Assembly: GCF_004792515.1 (NCBI RefSeq)
Contig: NZ_CP038865.1
Span: 1,014,001 to 1,078,000 of the forward strand
Reading direction: 5' to 3'
DNA from: Vagococcus xieshaowenii
GTDB taxonomy: Bacteria; Bacillota; Bacilli; Lactobacillales; Vagococcaceae
DNA: 64,000 bases
The notes under the pieces were generated by a model that made no database searches, was not told the origin of the DNA, and saw only the letters and a program-made list of their open reading frames with translations. Shown piece after piece: positions 48,057 through 64,000 of this stretch. A program made the translations under genes and the position numbers. Every line of letters starts with the position of its first letter. The stretch's first letter is position 1.

Positions 48057-49412
48057 GTTTTACGATTACTTGAATCTTTAGAGTACTAAAACTCTTCTGT
48101 TGTGTCATACACGTAAACTTTTGTTTTACGATTACTTGAATCTTTAGAGTACTAAAACTAATACTAAGATTATGTCGATTGCACAAGTGTTTTACGATTA
48201 CTTGAATCTTTAGAGTACTAAAACCATATTTACCTATAATTTTGTGCTTTTCTTGTTTTACGATTACTTGAATCTTTAGAGTACTAAAACTTAAGCGTTC
48301 GTTTGAACTCATAACCAACTGTTTTACGATTACTTGAATCTTTAGAGTACTAAAACAATATGAGCATTTACTTAATAACAAATGACGTTTTACGATTACT
48401 TGAATCTTTAGAGTACTAAAACAAAGCGCTATGTGGACGCTAGGCGCTACATGTTTTACGATTACTTGAATCTTTAGAGTACTAAAACTACCAGTTGCAG
48501 CATCACGAACGTACAAATGTTTTACGATTACTTGAATCTTTAGAGTACTAAAACGAAGTCAATGTTGATTATCTGCATAAATTGGTTTTACGATTACTTG
48601 AATCTTTAGAGTACTAAAACTGATTTGAACCTTGCTAAACCTTACTAAAAGTTTTACGATTACTTGAATCTTTAGAGTACTAAAACCATTTGCTTTTACA
48701 ATCATTTTCTCGCCGAGTTTTACGATTACTTGAATCTTTAGAGTACTAAAACGAAAGTGGCTATCAAACTCACATAGAAATTGTTTTACGATTACTTGAA
48801 TCTTTAGAGTACTAAAACCAGTTTCGAAAGCACCGCCACCAATATTAGGTTTTACGATTACTTGAATCTTTAGAGTACTAAAACAATCTTCAAAGATACG
48901 ATCAATCGTTTCTTGTTTTACGATTACTTGAATCTTTAGAGTACTAAAACTACTTTCACGCCAACCGAAATAATTCAATGGTTTTACGATTACTTGAATC
49001 TTTAGAGTACTAAAACGTCGGTTTCGTATCTTTTTGGATAACTCCTGTTTTACGATTACTTGAATCTTTAGAGTACTAAAACGCTTTTCTATGTTCTTCC
49101 CAATATTTAGAAGTTTTACGATTACTTGAATCTTTAGAGTACTAAAACACTCGTCAAACGCTTGTGACTTGTTTGCTTGTTTTACGATTACTTGAATCTT
49201 TAGAGTACTAAAACTAGAATTATTTTTTGAACAGCCGGTCATTAGTTTTACGATTACTTGAATCTTTAGAGTACTAAAACAAGTCATGATTGGTTTAGCA
49301 GCAGTTGCTCGTTTTACGATTACTTGAATCTTTAGAGTACTAAAACAGCTTTCAAGACCGCCGTACAGAGCGCAATGTTTTACGATTACTTGAATCTTTA
49401 GAGTACTAAAAC
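48057..49412 (-). CRISPR. Type II-A CRISPR array, 21 repeats and 20 spacers
   Basis: Repeat length 36 bp and spacer length 30 bp throughout, so the period is exactly 66 bp from 48057 to 49412. On the crRNA strand (minus) the repeat begins GTTTTAGTACTCTAAAG and ends AAGTAATCGTAAAAC. All 21 repeats look identical, including the trailer-end one, which is usually degenerate. The newest spacers are at the right end next to csn2, as shown by the leader motif there. The exact 66-bp period keeps reading frames open through the array, producing two false repetitive proteins. I found no match of a spacer to the rest of the window by eye. Confidence 0.99.
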
Positions 49413-49452
49413 CTCAAATCCGTCGAAATGCGATTGTAGTATTAATTTAATT
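49413..49452 (-). promoter_or_regulatory. CRISPR leader with II-A anchor ATTTGAG
   Basis: Forty bp between the csn2 stop and the first repeat. The last seven bases before the repeat are ATTTGAG, the leader-anchoring sequence that directs spacer insertion in type II-A systems. It fixes the polarity of the array. Confidence 0.9.
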
Positions 49453-49478
49453 CTATAATGTTCGCCTTAAATTATCAA
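49450..49478 (-). promoter_or_regulatory. Array promoter inside the csn2 3' end
   Basis: TTGATA (49473-49478), 17-bp spacer, TAGAAT (49450-49455) on the minus strand. Transcription would start about 30 bp before the first repeat. Confidence 0.6.
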
Positions 49479-50505
49479 TTAAATATTTAATTTCTGGTTC
49501 AGATAAGCTAGTTGTATAAAGATAATCATTATTTACGATACCTAACAACTTGTTTAACACTATTAGACTGACTAAATATTGACTATTAATATTCGGAATA
49601 TCGAAACTCCCAATATAACCAAGCCATTTATTACCTGTCTCAAAAAAATCTTCATATTCAATATATTTAGAAGGATAATTGAACTTCAATCTTTCATACA
49701 AAAATTCTAAATCATTTACTTCAAACTTCACGTCATTTAAAATAGTTATATTAGAATTTTCATCCAAAGATAAATATTCTACATCAGAATGTATCATCAT
49801 AAAATAAAAATTAGGAAATTCATCTGACAATGAACTCATCAATCTGTATAGTTCTAAATATTGCTTTTTAGATAAGAAATTCGGACTATCTTTAACAACT
49901 AATAAGATTCTGTCTCCCGAATTAGATAATGAATATTTTATTAAATTGATAAATACTTTTATTATCGTTATTTTATCAAAATAGGAAATATTTCTCTGAT
50001 CAATTTCATCATAATAATTAATCGTAGTATTCTTTTTCAAATAATCAATCATCAACTTCTTAGAAAATTCAAGATCCATTTCAATAGAATTAAAAATATT
50101 TTCCTTAAGATATTTTTCAAAAAGGAATAGAATACTTTTACTAGCAGTATCGATTTGATTTGAAATCTCTGTGATATTTATGTCACTATTTAAGAAGTTA
50201 TCAAAAATTTCGTCTAGTATTTTTTTATTTCCTAACTCAAGCTCCTTATAAATTTCTTCCATAGAGCCATAGGAAAAAAAATTGAATCGAGATTTAGAGA
50301 TTAACTCGTTGTTTTCTTGAATCCAAGGCTCTTCCATACCAAAGTCTCTCAAAACCAATTCATCATACTTCTTTTTATTAAAAAATAATCCTAATACTTT
50401 TTGAATTTTTTTTATTTTATCAACATTTTGCCCAATTATTTGATTTTTTTGTCCAACTTCGATTTCAACGGTCTCTGAATGATCTAACTTTATCTTCCAA
50501 ATCAC
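49453..50505 (-). CDS. csn2: Csn2, long (S. thermophilus CRISPR1-like) form
   Basis: Type II-A adaptation protein; Csn2 forms a ring around DNA ends and is needed with Cas1, Cas2 and Cas9 for spacer acquisition. 350 residues, the long subtype, versus about 220 for the SpyCas9-type Csn2. Visible parts: MIWKIKLDHSETVEIEVGQ N-terminal strand region, helical arm (about 70-170) and a degenerate P-loop-like core with DRILLVVKDSPNFLSKKQY near 208. Start codon GTG overlapping the cas2 stop (GTGA). Assigned mainly by position and size. Confidence 0.85.
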   Translation of the reverse strand: MIWKIKLDHSETVEIEVGQKNQIIGQNVDKIKKIQKVLGLFFNKKKYDELVLRDFGMEEPWIQENNELISKSRFNFFSYGSMEEIYKELELGNKKILDEIFDNFLNSDINITEISNQIDTASKSILFLFEKYLKENIFNSIEMDLEFSKKLMIDYLKKNTTINYYDEIDQRNISYFDKITIIKVFINLIKYSLSNSGDRILLVVKDSPNFLSKKQYLELYRLMSSLSDEFPNFYFMMIHSDVEYLSLDENSNITILNDVKFEVNDLEFLYERLKFNYPSKYIEYEDFFETGNKWLGYIGSFDIPNINSQYLVSLIVLNKLLGIVNNDYLYTTSLSEPEIKYLIDNLRRTL

Positions 50506-50828
50506 TCAATCACAACCAATCTCTTATCACCAATAACTTCCTCTTGTTGACTTTTCTTTCCAACTAGAAACGTCATATCTTCATACTGCTTTTCCGTTAC
50601 CATCATCAACCTTACTTCACCGTTTGGAGGCAAATATTTAGTTAGTAGTGCTTCATACTTCATAGCAAAACTCCTGTTGGGACACGTTCGTACATAAACT
50701 GAAAATTGAATCATCTGGAACCCATTGGCTAATAATGATTTACGAAAAATCCGATAATATCTTAAATCAGCCTTTGTTTCTGTTGGTAAATCGAAAAAAC
50801 ACATCAATCTCATAGCCGTATACCTCAT
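50502..50828 (-). CDS. cas2: CRISPR-associated endonuclease Cas2
   Basis: 108 residues, ferredoxin-like fold. N-terminal MRLMCFFDLPTETKADLRYY carries the metal-binding Asp13 (FDLP), followed by FRKSLLANGFQMIQFSVYVR. With Cas1 it forms the spacer integrase. Overlaps cas1 (ATGA) and csn2 (GTGA), so the three adaptation genes are translationally coupled. Confidence 0.96.
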   Translation of the reverse strand: MRYTAMRLMCFFDLPTETKADLRYYRIFRKSLLANGFQMIQFSVYVRTCPNRSFAMKYEALLTKYLPPNGEVRLMMVTEKQYEDMTFLVGKKSQQEEVIGDKRLVVIE

Positions 50829-51733
50829 TTAAATACGCTTTCTAAACTTAATAAATCAAAATTTTTTAGATTAATTTCTTTATTATCAATCATTATGTTT
50901 ACAAATTTCTGAACATACTTTTCCATAATGGTTGACAATAATGTATTATTACCGTTATACACTAAACGTTGATTAAGTAAATCAATTAGAGCACGTCTAT
51001 CATCCGCAGTAAGATATTCCCTCCCATTCATATACTTCACTGTCCAAGCATCCACGATAGGACGAAATGGCTCAATCAAATCATCCACTAAATTAAATTG
51101 ATTATATTCACTTTTGTGAAATACTCCTAAAGCGGGGATTAATCCATAACCTGTAACTAATCTTGCCATATAAGAACGTAATATAGTATAGCCGTAATTT
51201 AACGCTCCGTTTACAATAAAGTCATCTGAACGACGATTAAATTCTAATCCAAAAAGGGTGTTGAAATATACTTTAGCCGCATGACCTTCTCGATTGCTAG
51301 AATCACCTAACTTTACTTCATTTTTTAACTTATCAAGCACCGCTATTCTTTCTTCATCACAGCCGTATCCCACTAACACTTGCTTCTGGTTTTCAATTTT
51401 CAAGCTAATTATTTCCTTCCAAATATTATCTTTCATTTCTTCTGTCCATTTTGCCTGTTTTTGAACAATTTTACTTGACCTTGAATGAGATAAAAATGGG
51501 TGATAAACACCTACAGGTAGATAATTTTTATCACAAAAAATGACTGAAATTGAATAATCAGCACATTTAGCCAATAACCTACTAGTGATTTTAGTTCGAA
51601 CACTTTCTATGACAATCATAGAAATATCAGAAAGAGGAATTACGAAATCACTTTCTGAACAAATAATGTGTAAATTATCGAGCTTTAACTTTAATTCTTC
51701 TGAGTCTTTTATTAAGACTACTCGCCAGGTCAA
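50825..51733 (-). CDS. cas1: CRISPR-associated endonuclease Cas1
   Basis: 302-residue type II integrase subunit. N-terminal beta domain 1-75, alpha domain with the metal ligands Glu149 (NREGHAAKVYF), His206 (ALGVFHKSEY) and Glu221 (DDLIEPFRP). Start is a TTG at 51733 with GGAG 9 nt upstream. It follows the tracrRNA gene, as in the S. thermophilus CRISPR1 layout. Confidence 0.96.
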   Translation of the reverse strand: MTWRVVLIKDSEELKLKLDNLHIICSESDFVIPLSDISMIVIESVRTKITSRLLAKCADYSISVIFCDKNYLPVGVYHPFLSHSRSSKIVQKQAKWTEEMKDNIWKEIISLKIENQKQVLVGYGCDEERIAVLDKLKNEVKLGDSSNREGHAAKVYFNTLFGLEFNRRSDDFIVNGALNYGYTILRSYMARLVTGYGLIPALGVFHKSEYNQFNLVDDLIEPFRPIVDAWTVKYMNGREYLTADDRRALIDLLNQRLVYNGNNTLLSTIMEKYVQKFVNIMIDNKEINLKNFDLLSLESVFK

Positions 51734-51760
51734 ATTACCACACTCCTTTCATTAATAAAC

Positions 51761-51887
51761 AAAAAAACTTCTCTTGCCTAAACAAGAGAAGTAAATTCGG
51801 GATTTCCCCTTATTTTAGTAGGTTCTAAAAATTCAAGTAATCGTAAAAATTTTTTAACCTAATCACTAGTGATATGAGCGTCCTCAC
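51761..51887 (-). ncRNA. tracrRNA
   Basis: Between cas9 and cas1, same strand. The anti-repeat (51812-51849) begins TTTTTACGATTACTTGAAT and pairs with the crRNA repeat in two helices: GUUUUAGUA with UACUAAAAU, then a 2-nt/4-nt bulge (CU/AACC), then 13 bp. Next comes a nexus hairpin (GGGGAAATCCC, 51798-51808) and a terminator stem ACTTCTCTTG / CAAGAGAAGT (51768-51792) with seven T. Transcription from the promoter at 51894-51922 would add a leader of about 40 nt before the anti-repeat. Confidence 0.93.
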
Positions 51888-51893
51888 AATTAG

Positions 51894-51922
51894 ATTATAT
51901 CATCCGTATATTGAACGAGCAA
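51894..51922 (-). promoter_or_regulatory. Promoter of tracrRNA
   Basis: TTGCTC (51917-51922), exactly 17 bp, TATAAT (51894-51899) on the minus strand. The -35 ends one base before the cas9 stop codon. Confidence 0.8.
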
Positions 51923-54900
51923 CTAAAAAATTAAACTTAAGTCTTCTTTTTTTACATGATAGATATTACCTAATATGTCCGTTCTTAATTTTTCAATAAC
52001 TAAATTTTCCTTAGAAATTCCTTTTAATAATTGTCGACCTGCAGATTTTCCTAATTTTTCTAATCCCGTATCATCACCTTTTTCAAATAATGCTTTATGA
52101 TAAGGTTTTAACTCAACATATCCTCTTTTTTGTGGCATCGTTCTAGATAAAAATCTAAAAATGTTGGTTTCACCATTTTCTGTATCTGTAATTCTGATAA
52201 TATCATTTTTATATAACGAAAAGACAAATTCAGAATTTTCTCCTATTCCTTCTTTTATTCTTAATTCCTCATAAACACCGTCTTTAAACCCGTATTTACC
52301 ACCTTTAAGAAACTGAATGTCTTTATACTTGATTCCTAATATCTCATAAACACCTTTTTGATGATTATAATATACATCAGATCGATAAGGATTCGTCGAT
52401 AACAACACCACTTTTTTACTAGAATTACTTGGTGTAATATCAACACATTCATTTACTTTTTTGTTATAGTATTTTATATCTTTAATCACCGGTCCATTAC
52501 CTTTTTTGCTGTATTTCTTAATTTCACCGTATTCTTGCTGATATGCAGCAAAGGGATTGTCCATATCCGAATATTGATCCATAATTTTTTCCATTAACTC
52601 GAAGGTTTTTGGATCATGGTGATACATCAAAAATTGGGTTTTGTCTTTTTTATATTTTGGTAAAAAATCTTTCTTATAAATATTAACATCATAAATATTT
52701 TTAATTTTTCCGATTGTTTTAATTTCTTTTTTCCCCTTGGCATTTTCAACTTCTCTTGTTGAATAAATAGTAGCATCGCTTATTTTGCGATTATACTTTG
52801 TATCCACTCTGTGTGAGTACTTAACGTATGGCTCATAAGCTTTTACATTATCAAAGAAATTGGGATACGGGTTTCCATAAGCTAGCTCTCCATAAACTTT
52901 TTTATCCATTTTTTCAAGGTATAGTTTTTCCTCAGTAGCATCTGAATTCGTATTATTTTCTTGTAGGGAGCTGAATTTATTTTGCCAAATCTTTTGTTGA
53001 GGAACACTTGCGACAATTAGTGCATCAATCGCATGATGGGCATAGCTTTCATCCCTATCCTTGTTTATTCGCCATTTTCTTCTAAGAGTGCTTGTATATT
53101 TTCCACGTACGATTGAAACTTGTGTATTATTTCCATGTGCTTTAAAAAATTTTTGTAATTCGTTTAACACAGTTTTGGAAGCATAACGCGTATCCACTAA
53201 GTTTCGATTAATAAAACCTTGCCTCACTTCCCATTTATTAATGTCTTCCATCATGAGTAAATTTTTTCTTTTCGATAAAGTTATTTTCTTTTTATTGTAC
53301 AATTTTTCTATATCATTCCTGAAATCTTCAAAATTTCTACGGCTACTTCCGCTTAGATATTGCCAAGGTGTTCGCTGTCCTTTTACTTTATTTTCAGAAC
53401 GATAGGATAACACTTTATTATTTAAACCATCATCAAACGAAACCGAAAGTGGAATAACATGATCAATTTCAAACTGATTAGGGTTATTTACCAACTCAGA
53501 AATTTTTATTATTTTACCTGAATATAGACATTTTCCACCCTGTTGATACCATAACCTTAATTTAGTATCTAAGTCTTTATGACCATGGAATACACTGTCA
53601 TCACAACCATATTCTGCTTTAGCTAGATCGATAGCTTTTCTTTTTTCTTCACGATTATTTTTTTGTGCTTGTTCCTGTGCCTTCTTTTGATCTGCAAGAT
53701 TAGTTTCACGAGGCATTTCGATTACAATTTTTTCAATTTCACCATAATTTTTAAGCAGTTGATTTATTATTTTTAGTGACTGATTTACTGATCTTCTAAC
53801 AACTGGATTCAAGATTTCTTCGCTAATCATTTTGGTGGGTAAATATTTATACGATTTATATTTTTCTATATTTTTCTTGAAAAATCCTCGCTCCGCGAGA
53901 ATTTGCATCTGATTTTTAGGTTCAATATACATATCTGCTATCATTTCATTCATGGCAAGTAACGACAAGCTGTGCCATCCTTTAATATCCTTAGAGTATT
54001 TTTTTCTGAATGAAATAATGAGTTCGATTTGTTTATCGTTAAAAATCGGTAATTTATCAGCAATGTCCCTTTTTATTCCACTTGCTTCGGTATTTAGTGT
54101 TAATATATAGCCTAATGTATCTAACTCTTCTCTACTTAAGTTATCAACAATAATTTCTTCATCGAAGAATTTCTGCATGTCACGATAGGTTTTAAAATTG
54201 TGAAACATTGGTTTGTCATCTTTTACAATAAATCCCGTAATTAATTCTTTAGACTCACCTGTAATTTTAGATATAATATTCATTACTTTAGGAGCTTTTT
54301 CATTTTTTATTTGTTTTATAATTTGTTTTTTTTGAGTCTCTGTTAACTTCTCATCATTAACACTTAAATTGTTAAGTTCATTTAACAAATCAAATTCTTG
54401 AGCGGTATAACTTATTCTTGCTCCCCTTAATTCATTGGGATAAACAGTACATTTGCCGATTAATACTTCAAATAAATTATTTAAAGTTTCTCCATTAACT
54501 TTATATCGTCCATAATCAGTCCTAGATGTTTCGGATCCAGGTCCATCAAAATATTCTCTTCTGTTACTTAATATTGAAATGTATTCATTTATAAATTCAT
54601 CACTTATTTCATCATAAAAGGCTTTTTGTGTTTTTAAAATTTCTTTAGCTTCATTTACATAAGCGGATGTTGGGAAAATATTTTCATACGCATGATTATC
54701 TTTAATAATAGTTCCTCTCGTCGCCCCAAATTTAGATAAACGAGCCAATTGAATTTCACAAGGAAAATATCCTTCTAGTAATCTTTTATTCTCATTAATT
54801 GCTTCGTTTGAAACTTCTTTATCATCTGCTAAATCATCTAAATAAGATACCCCTCTTCGTTTACAAAGGTGAATCAGTGACGCACTTAATTCATCTTTAC

Positions 54901-55186
54901 TAATTTGTTCAGTTAGTGCTTTAGTACGTACAGAATATATATTAATTATTTCTTTTCCAATTGGAAATCCATTTTTTTCTAACAATCTTTTAGCTCTAGT
55001 TAATCGATAAGTTCTGCGATTTTTTAACCTTCTAGCCCCTCTACTTTCTCTCCTGATTTTATTATTGTCTGCATCAGCCATAGGAAATAGTCTTGAACCC
55101 GCCTCAATTATATCTCCTGATTGAGCATTTATTACACCATAACCGACTGATGAAACACCTATGTCTAAACCTATTATTATCCCCAT
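51923..55186 (-). CDS. cas9: CRISPR effector endonuclease Cas9 (type II-A)
   Basis: RNA-guided DNA endonuclease, 1087 residues, a compact form close in size to S. thermophilus CRISPR1 Cas9. RuvC-I GLDIGVSSVGYG with Asp8; Arg-rich bridge helix RRESRGARRLKNRRTYRLTR split at about 48-67; RuvC-II VIEMPRE with Glu490; HNH EIDHVIPLS with Asp575 and His576; RuvC-III HHAIDALIV with His717/718 and Asp721. All catalytic residues are present, so it should be an active nickase pair. The C-terminal PAM-interacting domain (about 900-1087) gives no PAM by eye. AAGGAGG precedes the ATG. Promoter: extended -10 TGGTATAAT at 55216-55224. Confidence 0.98.
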   Translation of the reverse strand: MGIIIGLDIGVSSVGYGVINAQSGDIIEAGSRLFPMADADNNKIRRESRGARRLKNRRTYRLTRAKRLLEKNGFPIGKEIINIYSVRTKALTEQISKDELSASLIHLCKRRGVSYLDDLADDKEVSNEAINENKRLLEGYFPCEIQLARLSKFGATRGTIIKDNHAYENIFPTSAYVNEAKEILKTQKAFYDEISDEFINEYISILSNRREYFDGPGSETSRTDYGRYKVNGETLNNLFEVLIGKCTVYPNELRGARISYTAQEFDLLNELNNLSVNDEKLTETQKKQIIKQIKNEKAPKVMNIISKITGESKELITGFIVKDDKPMFHNFKTYRDMQKFFDEEIIVDNLSREELDTLGYILTLNTEASGIKRDIADKLPIFNDKQIELIISFRKKYSKDIKGWHSLSLLAMNEMIADMYIEPKNQMQILAERGFFKKNIEKYKSYKYLPTKMISEEILNPVVRRSVNQSLKIINQLLKNYGEIEKIVIEMPRETNLADQKKAQEQAQKNNREEKRKAIDLAKAEYGCDDSVFHGHKDLDTKLRLWYQQGGKCLYSGKIIKISELVNNPNQFEIDHVIPLSVSFDDGLNNKVLSYRSENKVKGQRTPWQYLSGSSRRNFEDFRNDIEKLYNKKKITLSKRKNLLMMEDINKWEVRQGFINRNLVDTRYASKTVLNELQKFFKAHGNNTQVSIVRGKYTSTLRRKWRINKDRDESYAHHAIDALIVASVPQQKIWQNKFSSLQENNTNSDATEEKLYLEKMDKKVYGELAYGNPYPNFFDNVKAYEPYVKYSHRVDTKYNRKISDATIYSTREVENAKGKKEIKTIGKIKNIYDVNIYKKDFLPKYKKDKTQFLMYHHDPKTFELMEKIMDQYSDMDNPFAAYQQEYGEIKKYSKKGNGPVIKDIKYYNKKVNECVDITPSNSSKKVVLLSTNPYRSDVYYNHQKGVYEILGIKYKDIQFLKGGKYGFKDGVYEELRIKEGIGENSEFVFSLYKNDIIRITDTENGETNIFRFLSRTMPQKRGYVELKPYHKALFEKGDDTGLEKLGKSAGRQLLKGISKENLVIEKLRTDILGNIYHVKKEDLSLIF

Positions 55187-55743: not shown

Positions 55744-57051
55744 TTAAGTATTCATATCTTGTTTTAAAGTTTTTTCATCTAAAAAGGTTTCCTTATAATT
55801 TTTTGTTTCAAAATTATTATTTGTTTCAAAATTATTAATAGTTAACTCTTTGTCATCTAGTATGTCGGAGACTAACTTACCTAGTAGCCTATTTTCATTT
55901 CTTTCTTCTATATATTTTCTCCTATGTATATGAATTGACTCTTTATCAGGAATATCTTTTAAAAGCTCCTGTAAAAAATTATTGTAACTTTTGCTATGAT
56001 TCACTTGATAATAGATTTGTTCATTCAAATATTTCTTAAAAAAATTATATCTATTTTCAATATGGAAAGACTCAATAAACTTTTTTAGTCTCACTGAATG
56101 AGGATAATTCTTGTCATATACTATTTTAATATCATAGTCTAAAGAATTACCAATAAAGCTCTCAATACTCTTTTCAGAATGAATATAAAATTTATACTTA
56201 TCTAAAAAGGATTCAGTAAACACATTCATTACACTATCAATGCCAATGTCCGTGCTACCTTTTAAAGAACTGTTACATTGAGAACAACTGGGAACAAGAT
56301 TAAACAATGAAACTGCTAAAAAAGGATGGTGTACCTTAGGAAAGCAATGGTCTAATTCTGCACGTATTTTCCCTTTATTCTTATTCTGGTATGTATAGAT
56401 ATATTGTGAATTACAATAAGGACATACGCTGATTCCTAATAAAAAAGTATATAAATATGCGCACCAATCTTTCGATTCTATCCCTTCTCTTTGAACTTCA
56501 TTCATATTTTCAATATTTTTAAATTTAATTACGCCAATATTCCTACACATTCTATTTTTATAAAAATTTTCTTTAAATAATTCTTCAAAGTTATTAATTA
56601 ATTCAATGTCTTTTTTTCCATTTTTTTTGTAAATATCATAACACCTTGTTCTGACTTTTGAATTAAAAACCTTTTTGTCTAATTTAATGAGATAATTGCC
56701 AAATTGCTTCTCTTTTTTTATCAATTCTGAATATTCTTCTTCTATTAACAACGAATTAGCATACATAAATAGGCACTTAAATTCTTTTATAGTTAGCATT
56801 TTTTCTTTACTAACCAAATTTTTACTAATACTTATTTTCTTTTTTTTCTTTTTTTCATCTTCTTTTTTTTTATCTTCATACTCTTTTTTCGCTTTAATTA
56901 ATAACTCTTTAAAATCTTTAGAAATTTCATCATCAAAATTAAAATCCCTACTGTCTTTTAGAAACATGTAAATAAATTCTTTTATAAATTCTTCTTTAAA
57001 AAAAGCATTGTGTAATTCTTTAATTTTAGGTTTCATTTCTAAAGGAATCAT
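55744..57051 (-). CDS. HNH endonuclease (Septu PtuB-like), last gene of the operon
   Basis: 435 residues. C-terminal-half HNH zinc nuclease: CPYC (Cys210, Cys213), then AELDHCFPKVHHP (Asp234, His235), then NLVPSCSQCN (Cys256, Cys259) - the zinc-knuckle HNH arrangement of PtuB and related nucleases. Before it is a Lys/Glu/Asp-rich stretch (about 68-80) and a helical N-terminal domain; the tail after 280 is unlike known domains. Longer than typical PtuB. It overlaps the ATPase gene by 4 bp (ATGA). Likely the DNA-cutting effector of the ATPase next door. Confidence 0.8.
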   Translation of the reverse strand: MIPLEMKPKIKELHNAFFKEEFIKEFIYMFLKDSRDFNFDDEISKDFKELLIKAKKEYEDKKKEDEKKKKKKISISKNLVSKEKMLTIKEFKCLFMYANSLLIEEEYSELIKKEKQFGNYLIKLDKKVFNSKVRTRCYDIYKKNGKKDIELINNFEELFKENFYKNRMCRNIGVIKFKNIENMNEVQREGIESKDWCAYLYTFLLGISVCPYCNSQYIYTYQNKNKGKIRAELDHCFPKVHHPFLAVSLFNLVPSCSQCNSSLKGSTDIGIDSVMNVFTESFLDKYKFYIHSEKSIESFIGNSLDYDIKIVYDKNYPHSVRLKKFIESFHIENRYNFFKKYLNEQIYYQVNHSKSYNNFLQELLKDIPDKESIHIHRRKYIEERNENRLLGKLVSDILDDKELTINNFETNNNFETKNYKETFLDEKTLKQDMNT

Positions 57052-58796
57052 TTTGTTACACCATTACTTTCACTAATTTCTTTCAACTCTATCTTAATTT
57101 TATTTAACTCATTTTCTAAGTATTCTCGTCTAGCTTCTACATTTTCATTTGCTTTATAGTATCTTGATGATTCCATATTTTTAATTAATGAATTTTTAAT
57201 GAAAACCTCTCCAATTTCTTCAATAATTGAATAAATATTGTTCACTTCACTTTGAGATAGTCTTTCTTGACCATTTATCTTATTTATTATCGTTTTAATA
57301 ACACCTTTGCTAAAGTCTCCGATTAAGCCATCTGATAAGAAAAAACTTTCCGCCATCAATTCATTTAAATTAGCTCCAAACGTATTTATCTCTATTTTAC
57401 TATGATTGTTACATAGAAAATTAACATCATCTTTTCTAATATCCGATAAAACCAGTGGAGAATGAGTTGTTAATATTATTTGAACATTTTTCCCTTTAAA
57501 CTTTTTGTTAGTAAACAATAATAATTCATGGATAAATTTTCGTTGCCACTCAGGATGAAGTGTAACATCTACTTCATCTAATAATATGATAATATTATCT
57601 TCTTCTTTATCAGACAATAAGCTTAAATTCGAAAATATAGACAATAAGGAATTTGTTCCTGAACTAATACTATTCCAAGATTTATTAAAATACTTGAATA
57701 TATCATTATTTAACATTTTTTTATTAGTATTTAATACTACTTTATCTTTTACAATAAAGTTAGAAATATCTATTAGGTACTTATATTCATCTACAATATC
57801 TACATCTAACCCTTTTATAAAAGAATCATAAATTGAACGTTCTTCGTTGTATAATTTATCAAAAAATATTTCACTAAACTCTTCCTCTTCACTTAAGAAT
57901 AAGTCAATTTTAGTAATAATTCTATTAATATTATAGTCTGGGGCTTCATTAATCCTTTCTTTTCCAAATTTATTTTCTAAAAAATAGCGAAAATCAGTAT
58001 ACGCATCATTTTCTCTCTTTATCTGATTGAACAAAAAACTTTTATTAGCCGTTAATTGAAAATTAGTATGTTTAGTATTATCAACTAATTTTTCTGACTC
58101 TTTGTTTAGATAAGCATAGGCAAAACTATGCTTTTTGAAGTAAGTATCATAAGCGTTGTCTACTCTTTCTGATTCAAGTTCAATAATACTATTCAAACCA
58201 AAGCGTTCTAACATTCCTTCCTCATCATTACTAGAAATATCATTAAAAATAAATCTAATTTGATTAGCGGTATTAGATTGTTCAAGTGATTTATAATCAT
58301 AAAATCCATTTATTATCAAATTGGTTAAAGAAGCATCTATGACACGACTCTTTTTTTTAGAATTTAACAAATTTGTAGATTCTAAATTATTTGATATAAA
58401 CATAGATTTTGTATGTTTAATAATATTCCCCCATTGGCCTTTTTCTTTTTTTATTACATCATCAATATATAGTTCAAAATCGAATATTCTTGAAATTTTA
58501 TATAAATACTCTTCATTTTCTTTAAATATAACGATAGTATTTCTATTTAATTCTTCTCCCTCTAAAATACTTATTATTTTTCTCAATAATCTTGTCTTTC
58601 CACTTCCATTTCCACCAACATTAACGGTCAAACAGTCCACCACTTCGCCATAAAAATTTTGTATAAACTTATCGCTTTTCTGTATTCTCACAAAAACTTT
58701 ATTTTCATTAAATTCCGTTTCCATTTGAATACGTGAGTCGAAACAATAACTTCTTACATCTGACCCTGTCACTTCAATAATACCAACTACTGTCAT
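57048..58796 (-). CDS. ABC/SMC-type ATPase (Septu PtuA-like)
   Basis: 582 residues. Walker A GGNGSGKT at 61-68; a long insert of coiled and helical sequence (80-370); signature-like SGTNSLLSI; Walker B ILLDEVDVTLHPEWQ with Asp407 and Glu408; D-loop and switch TTHSPLVLSDI near 449. This is the AAA_21/OLD-like ATPase architecture found in PtuA, RloC-like and retron-associated ATPases. No TOPRIM domain, so it is not OLD or PARIS AriB. It starts on the stop of the upstream gene (TAATG) and ends within the HNH gene start, so the three are co-translated. Confidence 0.85.
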   Translation of the reverse strand: MTVVGIIEVTGSDVRSYCFDSRIQMETEFNENKVFVRIQKSDKFIQNFYGEVVDCLTVNVGGNGSGKTRLLRKIISILEGEELNRNTIVIFKENEEYLYKISRIFDFELYIDDVIKKEKGQWGNIIKHTKSMFISNNLESTNLLNSKKKSRVIDASLTNLIINGFYDYKSLEQSNTANQIRFIFNDISSNDEEGMLERFGLNSIIELESERVDNAYDTYFKKHSFAYAYLNKESEKLVDNTKHTNFQLTANKSFLFNQIKRENDAYTDFRYFLENKFGKERINEAPDYNINRIITKIDLFLSEEEEFSEIFFDKLYNEERSIYDSFIKGLDVDIVDEYKYLIDISNFIVKDKVVLNTNKKMLNNDIFKYFNKSWNSISSGTNSLLSIFSNLSLLSDKEEDNIIILLDEVDVTLHPEWQRKFIHELLLFTNKKFKGKNVQIILTTHSPLVLSDIRKDDVNFLCNNHSKIEINTFGANLNELMAESFFLSDGLIGDFSKGVIKTIINKINGQERLSQSEVNNIYSIIEEIGEVFIKNSLIKNMESSRYYKANENVEARREYLENELNKIKIELKEISESNGVTK

Positions 58797-59359
58797 TATT
58801 CGTCCTCCAGCTTTTTAAATAAAGATTGATTAAAATAGTAATATATTGAAAAAGATTCCCAAAATTCCACAGACCAATATCTAGACAGTTTACTTAAACC
58901 TCTATAAATATATCCCTCTTTATAATTAGCAAACTTATTCATTTCTTTAGTACTTATTTGTATTTTCCTTACATCTTTTAAAAAAAATACATTATGCCAC
59001 TTCACATCATCTATTTCCCAGAACTCTTTTTTTATATCTTCATTAACTATTCGTTTATGTATTTTTGCCATATATACAAAACCTTGATTATTTTTTGAAA
59101 AAAATACTAAATCATTCTCGTTCATTTCTTTCCAAATATTTTCCATACTAGGTGTTGTACCCCAAAAAGAAATTTTTGAATAATCTTTTGGATAGTTTTT
59201 TTCATTTCCAAAAACTTCTTGTAATATTTCTGGATGGGATTTAAAAAAATTAATTTTTTGATTTACTTCTTCATTCTCGAAATTAATATCTATGGTATCA
59301 GTATTCTTTTCTCCCATGGGACAAAAAAATACATTTGGGTATGTAATTTTATCTTTCAT
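58796..59359 (-). CDS. Possible PUA/EVE-like protein, function unknown
   Basis: 187 residues. The central FWGTTPSMENIWKEMNENDL and VFFSKNNQGFVYMAKIHKRI, followed by WHNVFFLKDVRKIQI, form the strand pattern seen in PUA-fold EVE/YTH/McrB-N type domains that bind modified bases. The assignment is from pattern only and could be wrong. Stop overlaps the ATPase start by 1 bp. If correct, it could be the sensor that licenses the ATPase-HNH pair. Confidence 0.5.
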   Translation of the reverse strand: MKDKITYPNVFFCPMGEKNTDTIDINFENEEVNQKINFFKSHPEILQEVFGNEKNYPKDYSKISFWGTTPSMENIWKEMNENDLVFFSKNNQGFVYMAKIHKRIVNEDIKKEFWEIDDVKWHNVFFLKDVRKIQISTKEMNKFANYKEGYIYRGLSKLSRYWSVEFWESFSIYYYFNQSLFKKLEDE

Positions 59360-59369
59360 CTTATTGCTC

Positions 59370-60050
59370 CTAAATTAATTTGCTTAAAATGGGCCCTACT
59401 GTTTGAGAAATTGTTGCTAAAGCAGATAACAAGTTAATCACATTGACTCCTCTTTCTATTACTACTTTACCAAACCCCTGCTGCATCATTTTTTTATCTA
59501 ACGATTTTAATTCATCAATTTGTGTTGTAATAGTCTCTATTAATTCATCTTGACTAACAGTTGAATCTAATGAAATAACTAACTCAATAAAGTATTCTAC
59601 TCTAATTATTAATAGTTTAGAATTAAGTTGCTTCTCTATATATAAACCTCGTTGTTCTATATGATTTTCTATTTCTATTTGTAAATTAGGGTCTGAAATA
59701 TTTAATATCATTTTTTTTGTTTGTTCATCATACTGAGCAAAAGCTATTAAATCTAAAAAATCTTTCTTCCAATCCTTGTTTTCTTCAGGATAAAGTAATT
59801 CTTTTTTTATTTTTAAATTCCTTACTCTAGTTTGAGTTATTCCTAGTTCTTTACTAAGAAGGTAATCTGAATCTGCGTTAAAAAAACCTTCTGCTTTTTT
59901 CTTGATTTTATTTTGATAAAAAAACTTAAACATTAGTAAATCTATTTCAGTTTTTGAGGTTAAACCAAAGTTTTTTTGATAGTATTTTTCACATATTTCA
60001 TCAAAATACTTTAATTTTTCTGAATCTGAAAATTCAACTTTAGGATTCAT
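59370..60050 (-). CDS. Unknown protein with HTH-like segment and hydrophobic C-terminus
   Basis: 226 residues, no recognised family. Residues 62-80 (DYLLSKELGITQTRVRNLK) look like a helix-turn-helix. Residues 201-226 (GVNVINLLSALATISQTVGP and on) are hydrophobic, without Lys or Arg until residue 224, and could be a membrane anchor. The middle is helical. The start codon overlaps the stop of the MazG-like gene (TAATG), so the two are made in fixed ratio. It resembles, in layout only, small membrane effectors of abortive-infection systems. Confidence 0.6.
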   Translation of the reverse strand: MNPKVEFSDSEKLKYFDEICEKYYQKNFGLTSKTEIDLLMFKFFYQNKIKKKAEGFFNADSDYLLSKELGITQTRVRNLKIKKELLYPEENKDWKKDFLDLIAFAQYDEQTKKMILNISDPNLQIEIENHIEQRGLYIEKQLNSKLLIIRVEYFIELVISLDSTVSQDELIETITTQIDELKSLDKKMMQQGFGKVVIERGVNVINLLSALATISQTVGPILSKLI

Positions 60051-60376
60051 TAATTTCCCTCCTTCCCATATTTACCTTTACTTTCTTCTATTGTATATTT
60101 TTTACCATTCTTCTTAATCTTATTTCTAATAATCTCCTCAACACTCAAACCTAAATCATCTGCTAACATCAATGAATAAATCATCACATCAGCTATTTCA
60201 TCTTTGATATTTTCTAAATCGTCTGCTATGGCTTCTTCACTTGTTTTCCATTGGAAGTTTTCAAGTAGCTCAGAAGCCTCTAATGAAACTGATAATGCCA
60301 AATCTTTGGCATTATGAAACTGTCTCCAGTCTCGCTCATCTCTAAATTGATTGATTTCTTTAATTAGCTCATCCAT
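60050..60376 (-). CDS. MazG-like nucleotide pyrophosphohydrolase, DCTPP1/RS21-C6 type
   Basis: 108 residues. N-terminal INQFRDERDWRQFHNAKDLA matches the RS21-C6 start almost word for word; metal ligands Glu33 and Glu36 (EASELLENFQW) and Glu60 and Asp63 (DEIADVMIYS). RS21-C6/DCTPP1 enzymes hydrolyse dCTP and modified dCTPs to monophosphates. Placed between a helicase gene and the membrane-effector-like gene, it may alter the nucleotide pool during infection. That role is inferred from context. Confidence 0.9.
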   Translation of the reverse strand: MDELIKEINQFRDERDWRQFHNAKDLALSVSLEASELLENFQWKTSEEAIADDLENIKDEIADVMIYSLMLADDLGLSVEEIIRNKIKKNGKKYTIEESKGKYGKEGN

Positions 60377-60388
60377 AATTAAATCCCC

Positions 60389-62053
60389 CTATAGTCCAAC
60401 TCTTTCTCTAAATAATCTCTCAACACTCTTATCTTCGAAATAAACCGCACAGCCATCAATTCCTCTTGAAAGGAGTACATAATAGATATTCAATATATAC
60501 TCAGTTAGTTCATACAAGTTAAATGTCTCTTTCAAAGGTGTTCCACCAACATCTTTATAATTTTCTGGTACAGCTATAATTTGACCATCTTTTACTGTTA
60601 AATCATTTCCAATAATAACTCCTGAATAATTTAAATCATAGCCTTGAATAGCATGAATAGAACCAATTTCATTTTCTGAGTTTGGTTTTTTCACCCAATC
60701 TTCATAAGTTGAGTTCCATCTCTTTTGAATACCATCCACATTCCAATCGTAAGGTAATTCTTCGCTTTTTTTACCCTTGTTATCTTTTTTCCCAATATTG
60801 GATAGCCATTCTCTGCAATAACCTGCAATCACTCTATTAGTTGTTTTGGGATATGCATGAGAGTATTCATCTACATAATCAACAACATCATTAAATGTAT
60901 CTACAATTTTGAAATAGTCATCTTTAAAAACATTAGAATTAAACTCTTTATCTTCACTTAGTTGAAGCGCATATAAAATCCCCTTCAAGAAATCTTCTCC
61001 TGAAAAATCTCCATTTCCACCAATTCTAAACTGTTGCATTAACAAAAGTTTTTTATAATCCTTTGTAAGATTTCTTATCTCTGATGGTCTAATATTTTGT
61101 GGTTTTATACCTTGATAAGGGTCATATAACAAAACTAACCCATCAGTTATTTCTTCGAGAAGTGTTATTTCCTCATCACCTTCACCCAAATGTCTTCTTG
61201 CATTGGGATGCCCTTTACGATAGTGTTGTTTCAATTTATGCGCTTCATCAACTATGATGATATCAAACTGCTCATCATTATTTTTTGCATCCATAATCAG
61301 CTGAGAACCTGTTTTAACGGATAATCTACCACTTAATCCTATTGATTTAAATATCAAATTAAATTGCTTAGTTAAATTTCCTGTGGTAATTAAGCCTATT
61401 CTTAAATCAGCGTATTTTTCAGCTAAAGAAAAAGCTAGATTTGTAAATAAGACAGATTTACCTGAACCTGCTGGTGCTTCAACTAAATATTTCTTTGTTA
61501 TATCTGTTTCAATTTCATTAACAATTTCTTTCTGCTTTGGTGATAGCTGTTTAAATGGTGAATACTTAAATAATAGACTTTCTCTTAACTCTTCAATATT
61601 AGGATTATGAACTAATTTTAAATTGTAAAGTTCATTATGCCATAAATTAAAGAACACTTCTGTTAAAATCATTTCTTTATTTTTATACACCAACTCACTC
61701 TGTCCGTTATTACCATTTGCAAAAACAAACTTAGTAGTATTAGCTTCTGCAATCATATAATTTAGAATTAATGACTCCAAATCCAAAATAGCTGATTTAT
61801 CAAATAGGTTAGAATATATTACCAAACAATCTGTATAGTCTCTATAATCTACTTTAGGATTCAACTCAGCTAAATGCTCATTGTGTCTTCTAGTGAAACC
61901 GTTTGTTTCACCAACGTAAACCTTTTTCTTCTTAATATTAAAATAAATATAAGTAACAGGATTATTATCAAGTACATTAGCATGAATTTTATCTAGCTTA
62001 CTAACTATTTCACCATCTTTAAGGGTTAAATTTAAAACTCTATAATTTGCCAT
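60389..62053 (-). CDS. GIY-YIG nuclease fused to DUF2075 (Schlafen group 3) helicase
   Basis: 554 residues. GIY-YIG nuclease domain at about 30-110: YIYFNIKKKKVYVGETNGF, with following RRHNEHL holding the catalytic Arg. SF1-like helicase from about 165: Walker A APAGSGKS (193-200), DEAH (IIIVDEAHKLKQ, 269-272), then QQFRIGG and a motif VI-like LLSRGIDGCAVYF near the C-terminus. The helicase is Pfam PF09848 type (DUF2075, SLFN-g3 helicase). Start at 62053 (MANYRV), GGAG 8 nt upstream. A nuclease-helicase that could degrade foreign nucleic acid. Confidence 0.85.
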   Translation of the reverse strand: MANYRVLNLTLKDGEIVSKLDKIHANVLDNNPVTYIYFNIKKKKVYVGETNGFTRRHNEHLAELNPKVDYRDYTDCLVIYSNLFDKSAILDLESLILNYMIAEANTTKFVFANGNNGQSELVYKNKEMILTEVFFNLWHNELYNLKLVHNPNIEELRESLLFKYSPFKQLSPKQKEIVNEIETDITKKYLVEAPAGSGKSVLFTNLAFSLAEKYADLRIGLITTGNLTKQFNLIFKSIGLSGRLSVKTGSQLIMDAKNNDEQFDIIIVDEAHKLKQHYRKGHPNARRHLGEGDEEITLLEEITDGLVLLYDPYQGIKPQNIRPSEIRNLTKDYKKLLLMQQFRIGGNGDFSGEDFLKGILYALQLSEDKEFNSNVFKDDYFKIVDTFNDVVDYVDEYSHAYPKTTNRVIAGYCREWLSNIGKKDNKGKKSEELPYDWNVDGIQKRWNSTYEDWVKKPNSENEIGSIHAIQGYDLNYSGVIIGNDLTVKDGQIIAVPENYKDVGGTPLKETFNLYELTEYILNIYYVLLSRGIDGCAVYFEDKSVERLFRERVGL

Positions 62054-62070
62054 TTCCATCACTCCAACTA

Positions 62071-63972
62071 TTAATTTAGAAATTCCATTACTTTTTCTTT
62101 TGTTGTATTATCTTTAAACCAGATGTATATACCTTTCCTTGCACGAGTCATCAATACTCTATAAGTATTTAAAACTAGTTCCTTAACTTCCACTGGATTC
62201 CCAAATTTAGGGATAAACTCATTTATATTATAGTCTTTACCATCTTTTTGAACTATCCAATGCCCCTTTAACCTATCATATTTTTTTAAAATCCCTTCAT
62301 ATTGTTGAACTATTTCCCTAATGAATTGAAAATCCTGACTTTTATTCAAATCAACTATCCAATCATTTTTTTGGGGTGACCAAATTAAGTCATTCCAAAA
62401 AATATAACCCACATAATCAAAATCAAGTCCCTGTGCTGTATAAATACAGCCGATTCTATCTTTATGATGTATTTCAATTTCTGAATACCATTCAAATTGT
62501 TCTTTAATAGGATTCCAAGGTTTAGAAAAGTTTTCTTTAGAGATGATGACATCATTTTTATTAACATTCTTAGTCCATTCCCAACAAAATGGAGCAAACC
62601 ACTGAGCTTTTTCATAATTAATTATATGATGTTCTAACATCATATCAATATCATTCAGACTATTTAAAACTCTTATGTCATAACCACTAATGTCTTCATA
62701 TTCATTAGCTACAGGATTCAAATTGAATAAATCATTTATCCTATCCACATAACTACTTTGATACAAAGACCTCTTTTGTATAGACAGGTATTCTTGGTGC
62801 AATCTAATGTCCATTTGACTGCTCTGAACATACTCATAAAAATTGTCTATCAGCCCTTCTTCATTAATTCTTACTCGTTGTCTGTCATCTTGAAGAACAA
62901 TAACAAATTTCACATTATTCTTAATATATAAATTATCTAAAACTTGATTTAAATTTTGTAATCTATGAGCTTCATCTATAATTACTAAATCAAATTGACC
63001 ACTTAAGTTATTGACATAAGGCATATATGTTTCAGTATGGCCACTAATGATAGCATTTAATATACGACTGGTTACCGCAAAAGCAACTGATTTTGACTTA
63101 GTTAAGTCAATATAGCGCTTAAGCAAATACAAACCTAAGTAGGTTTTTCCAGTTCCACAATCACCACTTATTATTATCAAGTGTTTCTGATTTTTTTCTC
63201 TAAAAATGTCAGAAACTCTAACAGAAACGTCTCTTTGCTCATCCAAGAGAGGGCTAATTTCATCTGAATTTAATGCTTTTACCAAATTTTCATACCCTTG
63301 TTTTTCCATTGAATACTGACCACTAATGATTAAGTTTGTAATAGTCGTAGAATCACTATTTTCAAACGTATCAGCTAACAATTTTACTAACTGGTTGTCT
63401 TCACCCTTAACAAAACAATTGCTCTTTTTCGAGTTATAGATACTATACTGATTAGCAAATAACTCCTCTTTATTTTGGAAATTATGAAGATACTGTACCT
63501 CCATAATTTCTACCTGATTGTTTCCTAAATTTGAATGATTACACTTCAAATGATTTCTATAGGTATGTGTTTGAGCGATTGGATGACTCCTAACACTTAT
63601 TTCTTCATCAACATTAGAAAGCTTCACAGATGTGCTAGAATCCTTATAATTTGTATCGATTGATTGCCACTGCTTTAGTTCAATTATCATCGCAGTTGGT
63701 CGATTAGTTTCTTTATGTAACCCAACTAATAACGCATCAATCCTTGAATTTAGAGGTGTTTCATATTCTAATATTAAATCCAAATTTGTTAATCCTGCTT
63801 CATTAATTAGATTAATCAGAATAGGCAATGAATTTTTCCATGATAATATTTCATTATCATTAAATTCAATAATAGTCTCTTCAAATGATTTAAATTTCAT
63901 CAACATCTTTTCAGCCAATTCTTCCTTAGACAAATTTATTAAGCTAGAAACTTTATCATAAAAATACAACAT
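62071..63972 (-). CDS. PD-(D/E)XK nuclease fused to DUF2075 (Schlafen group 3) helicase
   Basis: 633 residues, first visible gene of the operon. N-terminal restriction-like nuclease: Glu70, Asp79 (SRIDALLVG) and the E-x-K pair Glu98/Lys100 (AMIIELKQW), a complete PD-(D/E)XK core. Helicase: Walker A SGDCGTGKT (270-277 region), DEAH VIIDEAHRLQ (333-336), motif III-like VLQDDRQR, later YTAQGLDFDYVGYIFWNDL and RVLMTRARKGIYIWF (motif VI). Start at 63972 (MLYFYDKV) with GGGTGG 8 nt upstream. Upstream sequence beyond 64000 is unseen, so further operon genes may precede it. Confidence 0.85.
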   Translation of the reverse strand: MLYFYDKVSSLINLSKEELAEKMLMKFKSFEETIIEFNDNEILSWKNSLPILINLINEAGLTNLDLILEYETPLNSRIDALLVGLHKETNRPTAMIIELKQWQSIDTNYKDSSTSVKLSNVDEEISVRSHPIAQTHTYRNHLKCNHSNLGNNQVEIMEVQYLHNFQNKEELFANQYSIYNSKKSNCFVKGEDNQLVKLLADTFENSDSTTITNLIISGQYSMEKQGYENLVKALNSDEISPLLDEQRDVSVRVSDIFREKNQKHLIIISGDCGTGKTYLGLYLLKRYIDLTKSKSVAFAVTSRILNAIISGHTETYMPYVNNLSGQFDLVIIDEAHRLQNLNQVLDNLYIKNNVKFVIVLQDDRQRVRINEEGLIDNFYEYVQSSQMDIRLHQEYLSIQKRSLYQSSYVDRINDLFNLNPVANEYEDISGYDIRVLNSLNDIDMMLEHHIINYEKAQWFAPFCWEWTKNVNKNDVIISKENFSKPWNPIKEQFEWYSEIEIHHKDRIGCIYTAQGLDFDYVGYIFWNDLIWSPQKNDWIVDLNKSQDFQFIREIVQQYEGILKKYDRLKGHWIVQKDGKDYNINEFIPKFGNPVEVKELVLNTYRVLMTRARKGIYIWFKDNTTKEKVMEFLN

Positions 63973-64000
63973 AATTATTACCACCCACATCTAATATAGT

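Follow-up and report, generated by a model that had tools for sequence, protein, structure and literature searches.

Fusions of a nuclease to a helicase are known antiphage effectors. In Nhi and AbiO, for example, one polypeptide consists of a nuclease head and a superfamily 1 (SF1)-type helicase. We analyzed a stretch of 64,000 nucleotides from Vagococcus xieshaowenii (contig NZ_CP038865.1, positions 1,014,001 to 1,078,000; hereafter the window) in which two adjacent genes encode proteins of this general build. Both have an SLFN-g3 (DUF2075) SF1 helicase domain, but one has a GIY-YIG head (the GIY protein) and the other a PD-(D/E)XK-type head (the PD protein). The two genes share an operon with a gene for a MazG-like nucleoside triphosphate (NTP) pyrophosphohydrolase, and we find that MazG, rather than the other helicase, is the usual partner of either helicase. 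The recurrence of a nucleotide pyrophosphatase beside nuclease-helicases with two old types of head appears to be new; a literature search, which reached few subscription papers or preprints, returned no paper on DUF2075 with GIY-YIG or MazG.

The GIY protein has weak profile matches to Nhi (E 2.2e-11; 41.1 bits, residues 173-409 against profile positions 183-385 of 470) and AbiO (E 2.8e-9), and the PD protein has no listed match to Nhi. The match falls mainly in the helicase, and the window differs from Nhi and AbiO in having a GIY-YIG head, a MazG partner and a second copy with a PD head. A homologous helicase domain (PF09848) is found in animal group III Schlafens (SLFN11, SLFN5 and SLFN14). 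The best matches of the PD profile in the PDB are human SLFN11 (E 3.3e-7) and SLFN5, and the GIY model aligns with SLFN11 over 276-280 residues (Z 17.4), although UvrD-like SF1 helicases score higher (UvrD, Z 21.7). However, the Schlafen core RNase (AlbA_2-type) domain was not listed in the Pfam scan of the window proteins, which have GIY-YIG or PD-(D/E)XK heads instead. Thus, the link to animal Schlafens drawn in a first-pass annotation of this DNA holds for the helicase domain only, and we regard these proteins as relatives of that domain and not as Schlafens.

Both genes are intact open reading frames (ORFs) with 8 nt between them. Each product has a full-length PF09848 match (E 2.4e-48 and 165.6 bits for the PD protein, E 3.9e-44 and 151.8 bits for the GIY protein; curated cut-off 24), and the Walker A, Walker B and motif VI residues are intact in both and conserved among 109 GIY-type and 45 PD-type homologues. 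The GIY head matches PF01541 (E 5.1e-7, 30.3 bits, cut-off 22.6) and retains the Tyr/Tyr/Gly, Arg and Glu residues of GIY-YIG nucleases; among its homologues, Y38, Y49, G51 (108/109), R59, H63 and E96 (109/109) are conserved. The structure of the protein was predicted with a mean confidence score (pLDDT) of 89, and there are weak matches in the PDB to T4 endonuclease II and an intron endonuclease. No Pfam nuclease family or other profile family matched the PD head, the nearest being NERD, at E 0.006 in one relative and below the cut-off. Its residues E75, R83-x-D85 and E104-x-K106-Q107 are shared by all 45 homologues, and its model has the order alpha-beta-beta-beta-alpha-beta at moderate confidence (pLDDT 73.6). 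Conserved residues and model topology together suggest a PD-(D/E)XK nuclease. Fold searches with both models returned no known nuclease fold for either head because the helicase domain filled the match lists. The first-pass annotation described two adjacent SLFN-g3/DUF2075 helicases with different heads and intact catalytic residues, and the profile matches and the near invariance of these residues agree with it, the PD head being a predicted nuclease. The parts for ATP-driven tracking and cutting thus appear to be intact in both proteins.

The true start of the PD gene is likely the ATG at 63972, which follows a good Shine-Dalgarno sequence and gives a protein of 633 amino acids (aa), and that of the GIY gene is likely at 62053. 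Position 63972 is also where the first-pass annotation placed the end of the pair. A terminator-like hairpin separates the PD gene from an upstream AbiH gene. Together with the Shine-Dalgarno-ATG start, this indicates that the PD and GIY genes head their own operon, which comprises seven tightly spaced genes (about -4 to +12 nt) on the minus strand (Table 1). The first-pass annotation mentioned neither this operon nor its MazG-like gene.

The third gene of the operon encodes the only protein in the host genome that exceeds the cut-off for PF12643 (76.2 bits, cut-off 27). It has the ExxE/ExxD residues of MazG-like NTP pyrophosphohydrolases (E33, E36, E60 and D63), which are kept in 95-96 of 97 helicase-linked homologues. 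In the PDB it matches human dCTP pyrophosphatase 1 (DCTPP1, also RS21-C6; E 2.9e-11), with which it has the signature ERDW-QFH...E..EL.E.FQWK in common. The preferred substrates of human DCTPP1 are dCTP and 5-methyl-dCTP (PMC4491611). Unlike DCTPP1, the window MazG sits in an operon with nuclease-helicases. Because the helicase domain found in SLFN11 here has a partner similar to DCTPP1, both of them human proteins, the operon could serve as a small bacterial model for asking how Schlafen-type helicases are controlled.

Linkage between MazG and these helicases is common. With near-copies removed, 56 of 82 GIY-type genes and 17 of 40 PD-type genes have a MazG-like gene no more than 500 bp away, compared to 3 of 558 control ORFs (the other ORFs of at least 300 aa in the same loci). 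Most of the GIY loci were drawn from a scan of genome contigs with a GIY profile; loci from the class-wide family scan alone give the same trend (14/18 GIY, 11/23 PD). The pairing recurs with both head types across Bacillota, Bacteroidota, Patescibacteria, Actinomycetota and one archaeon, and we take this recurrence as strongly hinting at a role of nucleotide chemistry in self/non-self recognition by these proteins.

We think it probable that the window genes belong to a mobile, defence-type module with a core of an SLFN-g3 nuclease-SF1 helicase and a MazG/DCTPP1-like enzyme, in which the heads are interchangeable, and that both effectors here share one MazG. Such a module, of which little has been described, would tie the cutting of nucleic acids to nucleotide metabolism. 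The helicase would load on foreign or aberrant nucleic acid and track along it, and the head would cut, as in Nhi. MazG would hydrolyse a deoxynucleoside triphosphate (dNTP), probably one with cytosine or a modified cytosine as its base, and might either keep the host pool clean so that the cell's own DNA is spared, or set a nucleotide threshold for release of the nuclease. The reader-like protein and the Septu-like AAA and HNH proteins encoded downstream may contribute to sensing or be further effectors. In the window operon, PD and GIY effectors would have been brought together with one MazG serving both. We infer the antiphage role, the substrates and the role of MazG. The surroundings of the pair include AbiH, Cas9, Cas1/Cas2, Csn2, a repeat array and the candidate defence system PDC-M62 (AAA and HNH).

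Conservation of the operon in a genome of the same family (G011) argues for a coherent PD-GIY-MazG unit. The order of these genes is kept there and their products are 75%, 85% and 94% identical, respectively, whereas the AAA and HNH proteins encoded next share only about 34% identity with those of the window, and there is no 226-aa gene. Several observations weigh against the proposed module. MazG is not a strict requirement, since about one third of GIY loci and over half of PD loci have none adjacent. The substrate suggested for MazG comes from a distant similarity. Lastly, the downstream AAA and HNH genes may be a separate system, and defence islands gather unrelated systems.

A possible alternative, though an unlikely one, is that (d)NTPs themselves hold the nuclease off, and that a fall in the nucleotide pool during infection frees it, MazG serving to lower or tune the inhibitor. 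There is precedent in Ppl, which is released by phage-driven nucleotide depletion (PMC12904381), and the most recurrent neighbour of the helicases is indeed a nucleotide-hydrolysing enzyme. However, we found no nucleotide-binding regulatory domain beyond the motor, and the association with NUDIX and Ham1 enzymes fits sanitation at least equally well.

It is less likely that the helicases, MazG and the AAA and HNH proteins are unrelated systems that moved jointly and lie together by chance in a defence island. The surroundings are island-like, with a tyrosine recombinase by eno, and the downstream genes diverge faster than PD-GIY-MazG, with the 226-aa gene present in one of the two operons. On the other hand, the linkage to MazG far exceeds that of the controls, the seven genes are closely spaced, and PD-MazG-GIY arrangements occur independently.

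Some other neighbours of the relatives recall modification-dependent or type I restriction. MrcB_N readers and HNH domains occur near helicases at L011, L014, L052 and other loci, and proteins joining a reader-like part to HNH occur at L172, L162 and L109. Beside the helicase at L013 and L014 are an N6-methylase and a gene annotated as an S subunit; AAA and HNH genes occur near helicases in the window and at L017, L085 and L014; a PLD-helicase cluster is found at 11 loci and NUDIX enzymes at 7. The recurrence of these neighbours is suggestive of functional links. The window operon departs from those kinds of restriction: a methylase was not found in it, none of its seven genes matches HsdM or HsdS, and there is no classical HsdR. 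We consider it rather doubtful that the window encodes a system resembling restriction in which the cell is protected not by methylation of its DNA but by MazG, as the enzyme that destroys modified or non-canonical dNTPs, and the reader and two nuclease-helicases attack a base left only in invader DNA, with two motors and two cutters relying on one guard enzyme.

The first-pass annotation proposed that two paralogous motors form a heteromer or divide labour, for example between DNA and RNA or between two strands. A tree built from 115 helicase domains places the PD-headed helicases on one side of a branch, and a 33-row tree agrees with the PD/GIY split (support 99/98). In the latter, a sister relationship between the window PD and GIY proteins is rejected by the approximately unbiased (AU) test (p 5e-66). 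By these trees, the PD and GIY helicases belong to two clades of old origin. The two window genes are not recent paralogues, and an origin of the pair by tandem duplication is rejected. Because the trees split by head, there appears to have been about one change of head type in this sample, and pairs seem to have been joined from already separate lineages at least twice (the window type and L101).

Close pairs do recur, but they are rare. Among 399 genomes of the class, tandem PF09848 helicases occur only in the window genome and one genome of the same family. Close PD-GIY pairs make up 5 of 108 GIY loci in the collected set, or 6 if L060 is counted, where the order is helicase-MazG-GIY and the head of the first helicase is unclassified. 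The five are in the window, G011, Enterococcus phoeniculicola, a faecal contig (L027) and a Clostridia metagenome-assembled genome (L101). L101 has the order PD-MazG-GIY at about 25% identity. L027:3064-7459, on the faecal "Bacteriophage sp." contig MT838580, has consecutive genes for PD-DUF2075, MazG, GIY-DUF2075 and a Ham1-like NTP pyrophosphatase (about 32-33% identity). The E. phoeniculicola locus was rejected as an intact third pair: a frameshift disrupts the PD gene (L028:8090-9922) just ahead of motif VI of the helicase, the adjoining GIY gene is intact, and there is no MazG.

An obligate heteromeric machine of two motors and two cutters, similar to RecBCD/AddAB, therefore seems improbable to us. 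Adjacency in one operon and retention of both genes in the window and G011 are as expected for such a machine, and the pairing arose again in L101. In addition, a GIY gene adjoins the PD gene in 4 of 5 known members of the window PD sub-clade, a fraction biased upward by the GIY-centred or same-family searches through which most of them were found. The fifth member, L172 (genome G464; 34-37% identity), has no GIY gene, and MazG and a reader-HNH protein are beside it. Three scans of about 530 genomes for more members gave only G464 clearly, which indicates that the sub-clade is rare. GIY relatives of 82% (L018) and 68% (L019) identity occur without PD, and in E. phoeniculicola GIY is intact beside a broken PD. 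Frequent independent occurrence, which the first-pass annotation had named as evidence against its own proposal, is what we observe: solo genes dominate among both the class genomes and the GIY loci, and obligate pairing is rejected as a rule. Since each gene is common alone, a heteromer or division of labour is possible but not required. The pair would be well suited to a clean test for cooperation between two cutters borne on related motors.

A helper function in DNA or RNA repair or replication is very unlikely: the helicase has a UvrD/RecD2/Dna2-type fold and MazG-like enzymes can serve in housekeeping, but the genes are patchily distributed in the family (GIY in 5 of 29 genomes, PD in 2 of 29), and relatives occur on plasmids, on phage-like contigs and by restriction-type genes.

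Table 1. Genes of the operon, in order of transcription (window coordinates)
Feature	Position	Strand	Remarks
PD-(D/E)XK-type head (predicted) + SLFN-g3/DUF2075 SF1 helicase	62071-63990	minus	639 aa as listed; first gene
GIY-YIG head + SLFN-g3/DUF2075 SF1 helicase	60389-62062	minus	557 aa; second gene
MazG-like NTP pyrophosphohydrolase, DCTPP1/RS21-C6 type	60050-60376	minus	108 aa; third gene; PF12643 E 2.4e-21
226-aa protein	59370-60050	minus	Enterococcus faecium plasmid homologues
Reader-like protein	58796-59359	minus	187 aa; homology to reader-HNH proteins; phrog_14240 E 6.4e-13
AAA ATPase, Septu/PtuA-like, PADLOC candidate PDC-M62A	57048-58796	minus	582 aa; PDC-M62A E 1.6e-54
HNH protein, PDC-M62B	55744-57051	minus	435 aa; PDC-M62B E 1.1e-47; last gene of tight operon

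Homologues of the 226-aa protein are found on E. faecium plasmids (47% identity over 96%), and the gene is probably outside the core of the module. The 187-aa protein is homologous to the reader-like N-terminal part of the L172 and L162 reader-HNH proteins (residues 34-158 of the L172 ORF, E 1.8e-10; 32 bits with the reverse profile), and such proteins adjoin MazG and PD-DUF2075 in other loci. It has no sequence relative in the PDB and no plasmid match. The AAA and HNH proteins match PDC-M62A/B strongly and PtuA/PtuB of Septu weakly, and the AAA ATPase scores 63.7 bits against TIGR04435, under that family's cut-off. Unlike the PD and GIY proteins, they are not helicases.

Doubling of these helicases occurs in every head combination. 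There is a GIY-GIY tandem in Lactobacillus sp. Sy-1 (L031:8195-11656) and a PD-PD tandem on a plasmid of Hymenobacter canadensis (L021:5835-9821). A single-sequence search of viral relatives with the GIY protein gave no close match, and alignment-based viral searches gave only a few contigs for GIY and likewise for PD. Microcystis phage Mwe-JY31 (PP438423.1, 3864-5633) encodes a PD-type DUF2075 helicase (25% identity over 95% of the query). An ORF6N gene precedes the run of four genes in L027.

A type II CRISPR-Cas locus lies at 48057-49413 and 49453-55186 of the window, with Cas1, Cas2, a Cas9 of 1087 aa, a St-subfamily Csn2 and an array of repeats for which 20 copies at a period of 66 bp were reported. 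The AbiH abortive-infection gene (L004:5134-6240; PF14253 E 2.2e-22) is just upstream of the window's end, and a copy of 63% identity is also upstream of the corresponding operon in G011. A XerC/D-like tyrosine recombinase gene (L004:13026-13973) directly adjoins eno, and the region may thus be an integrated island.

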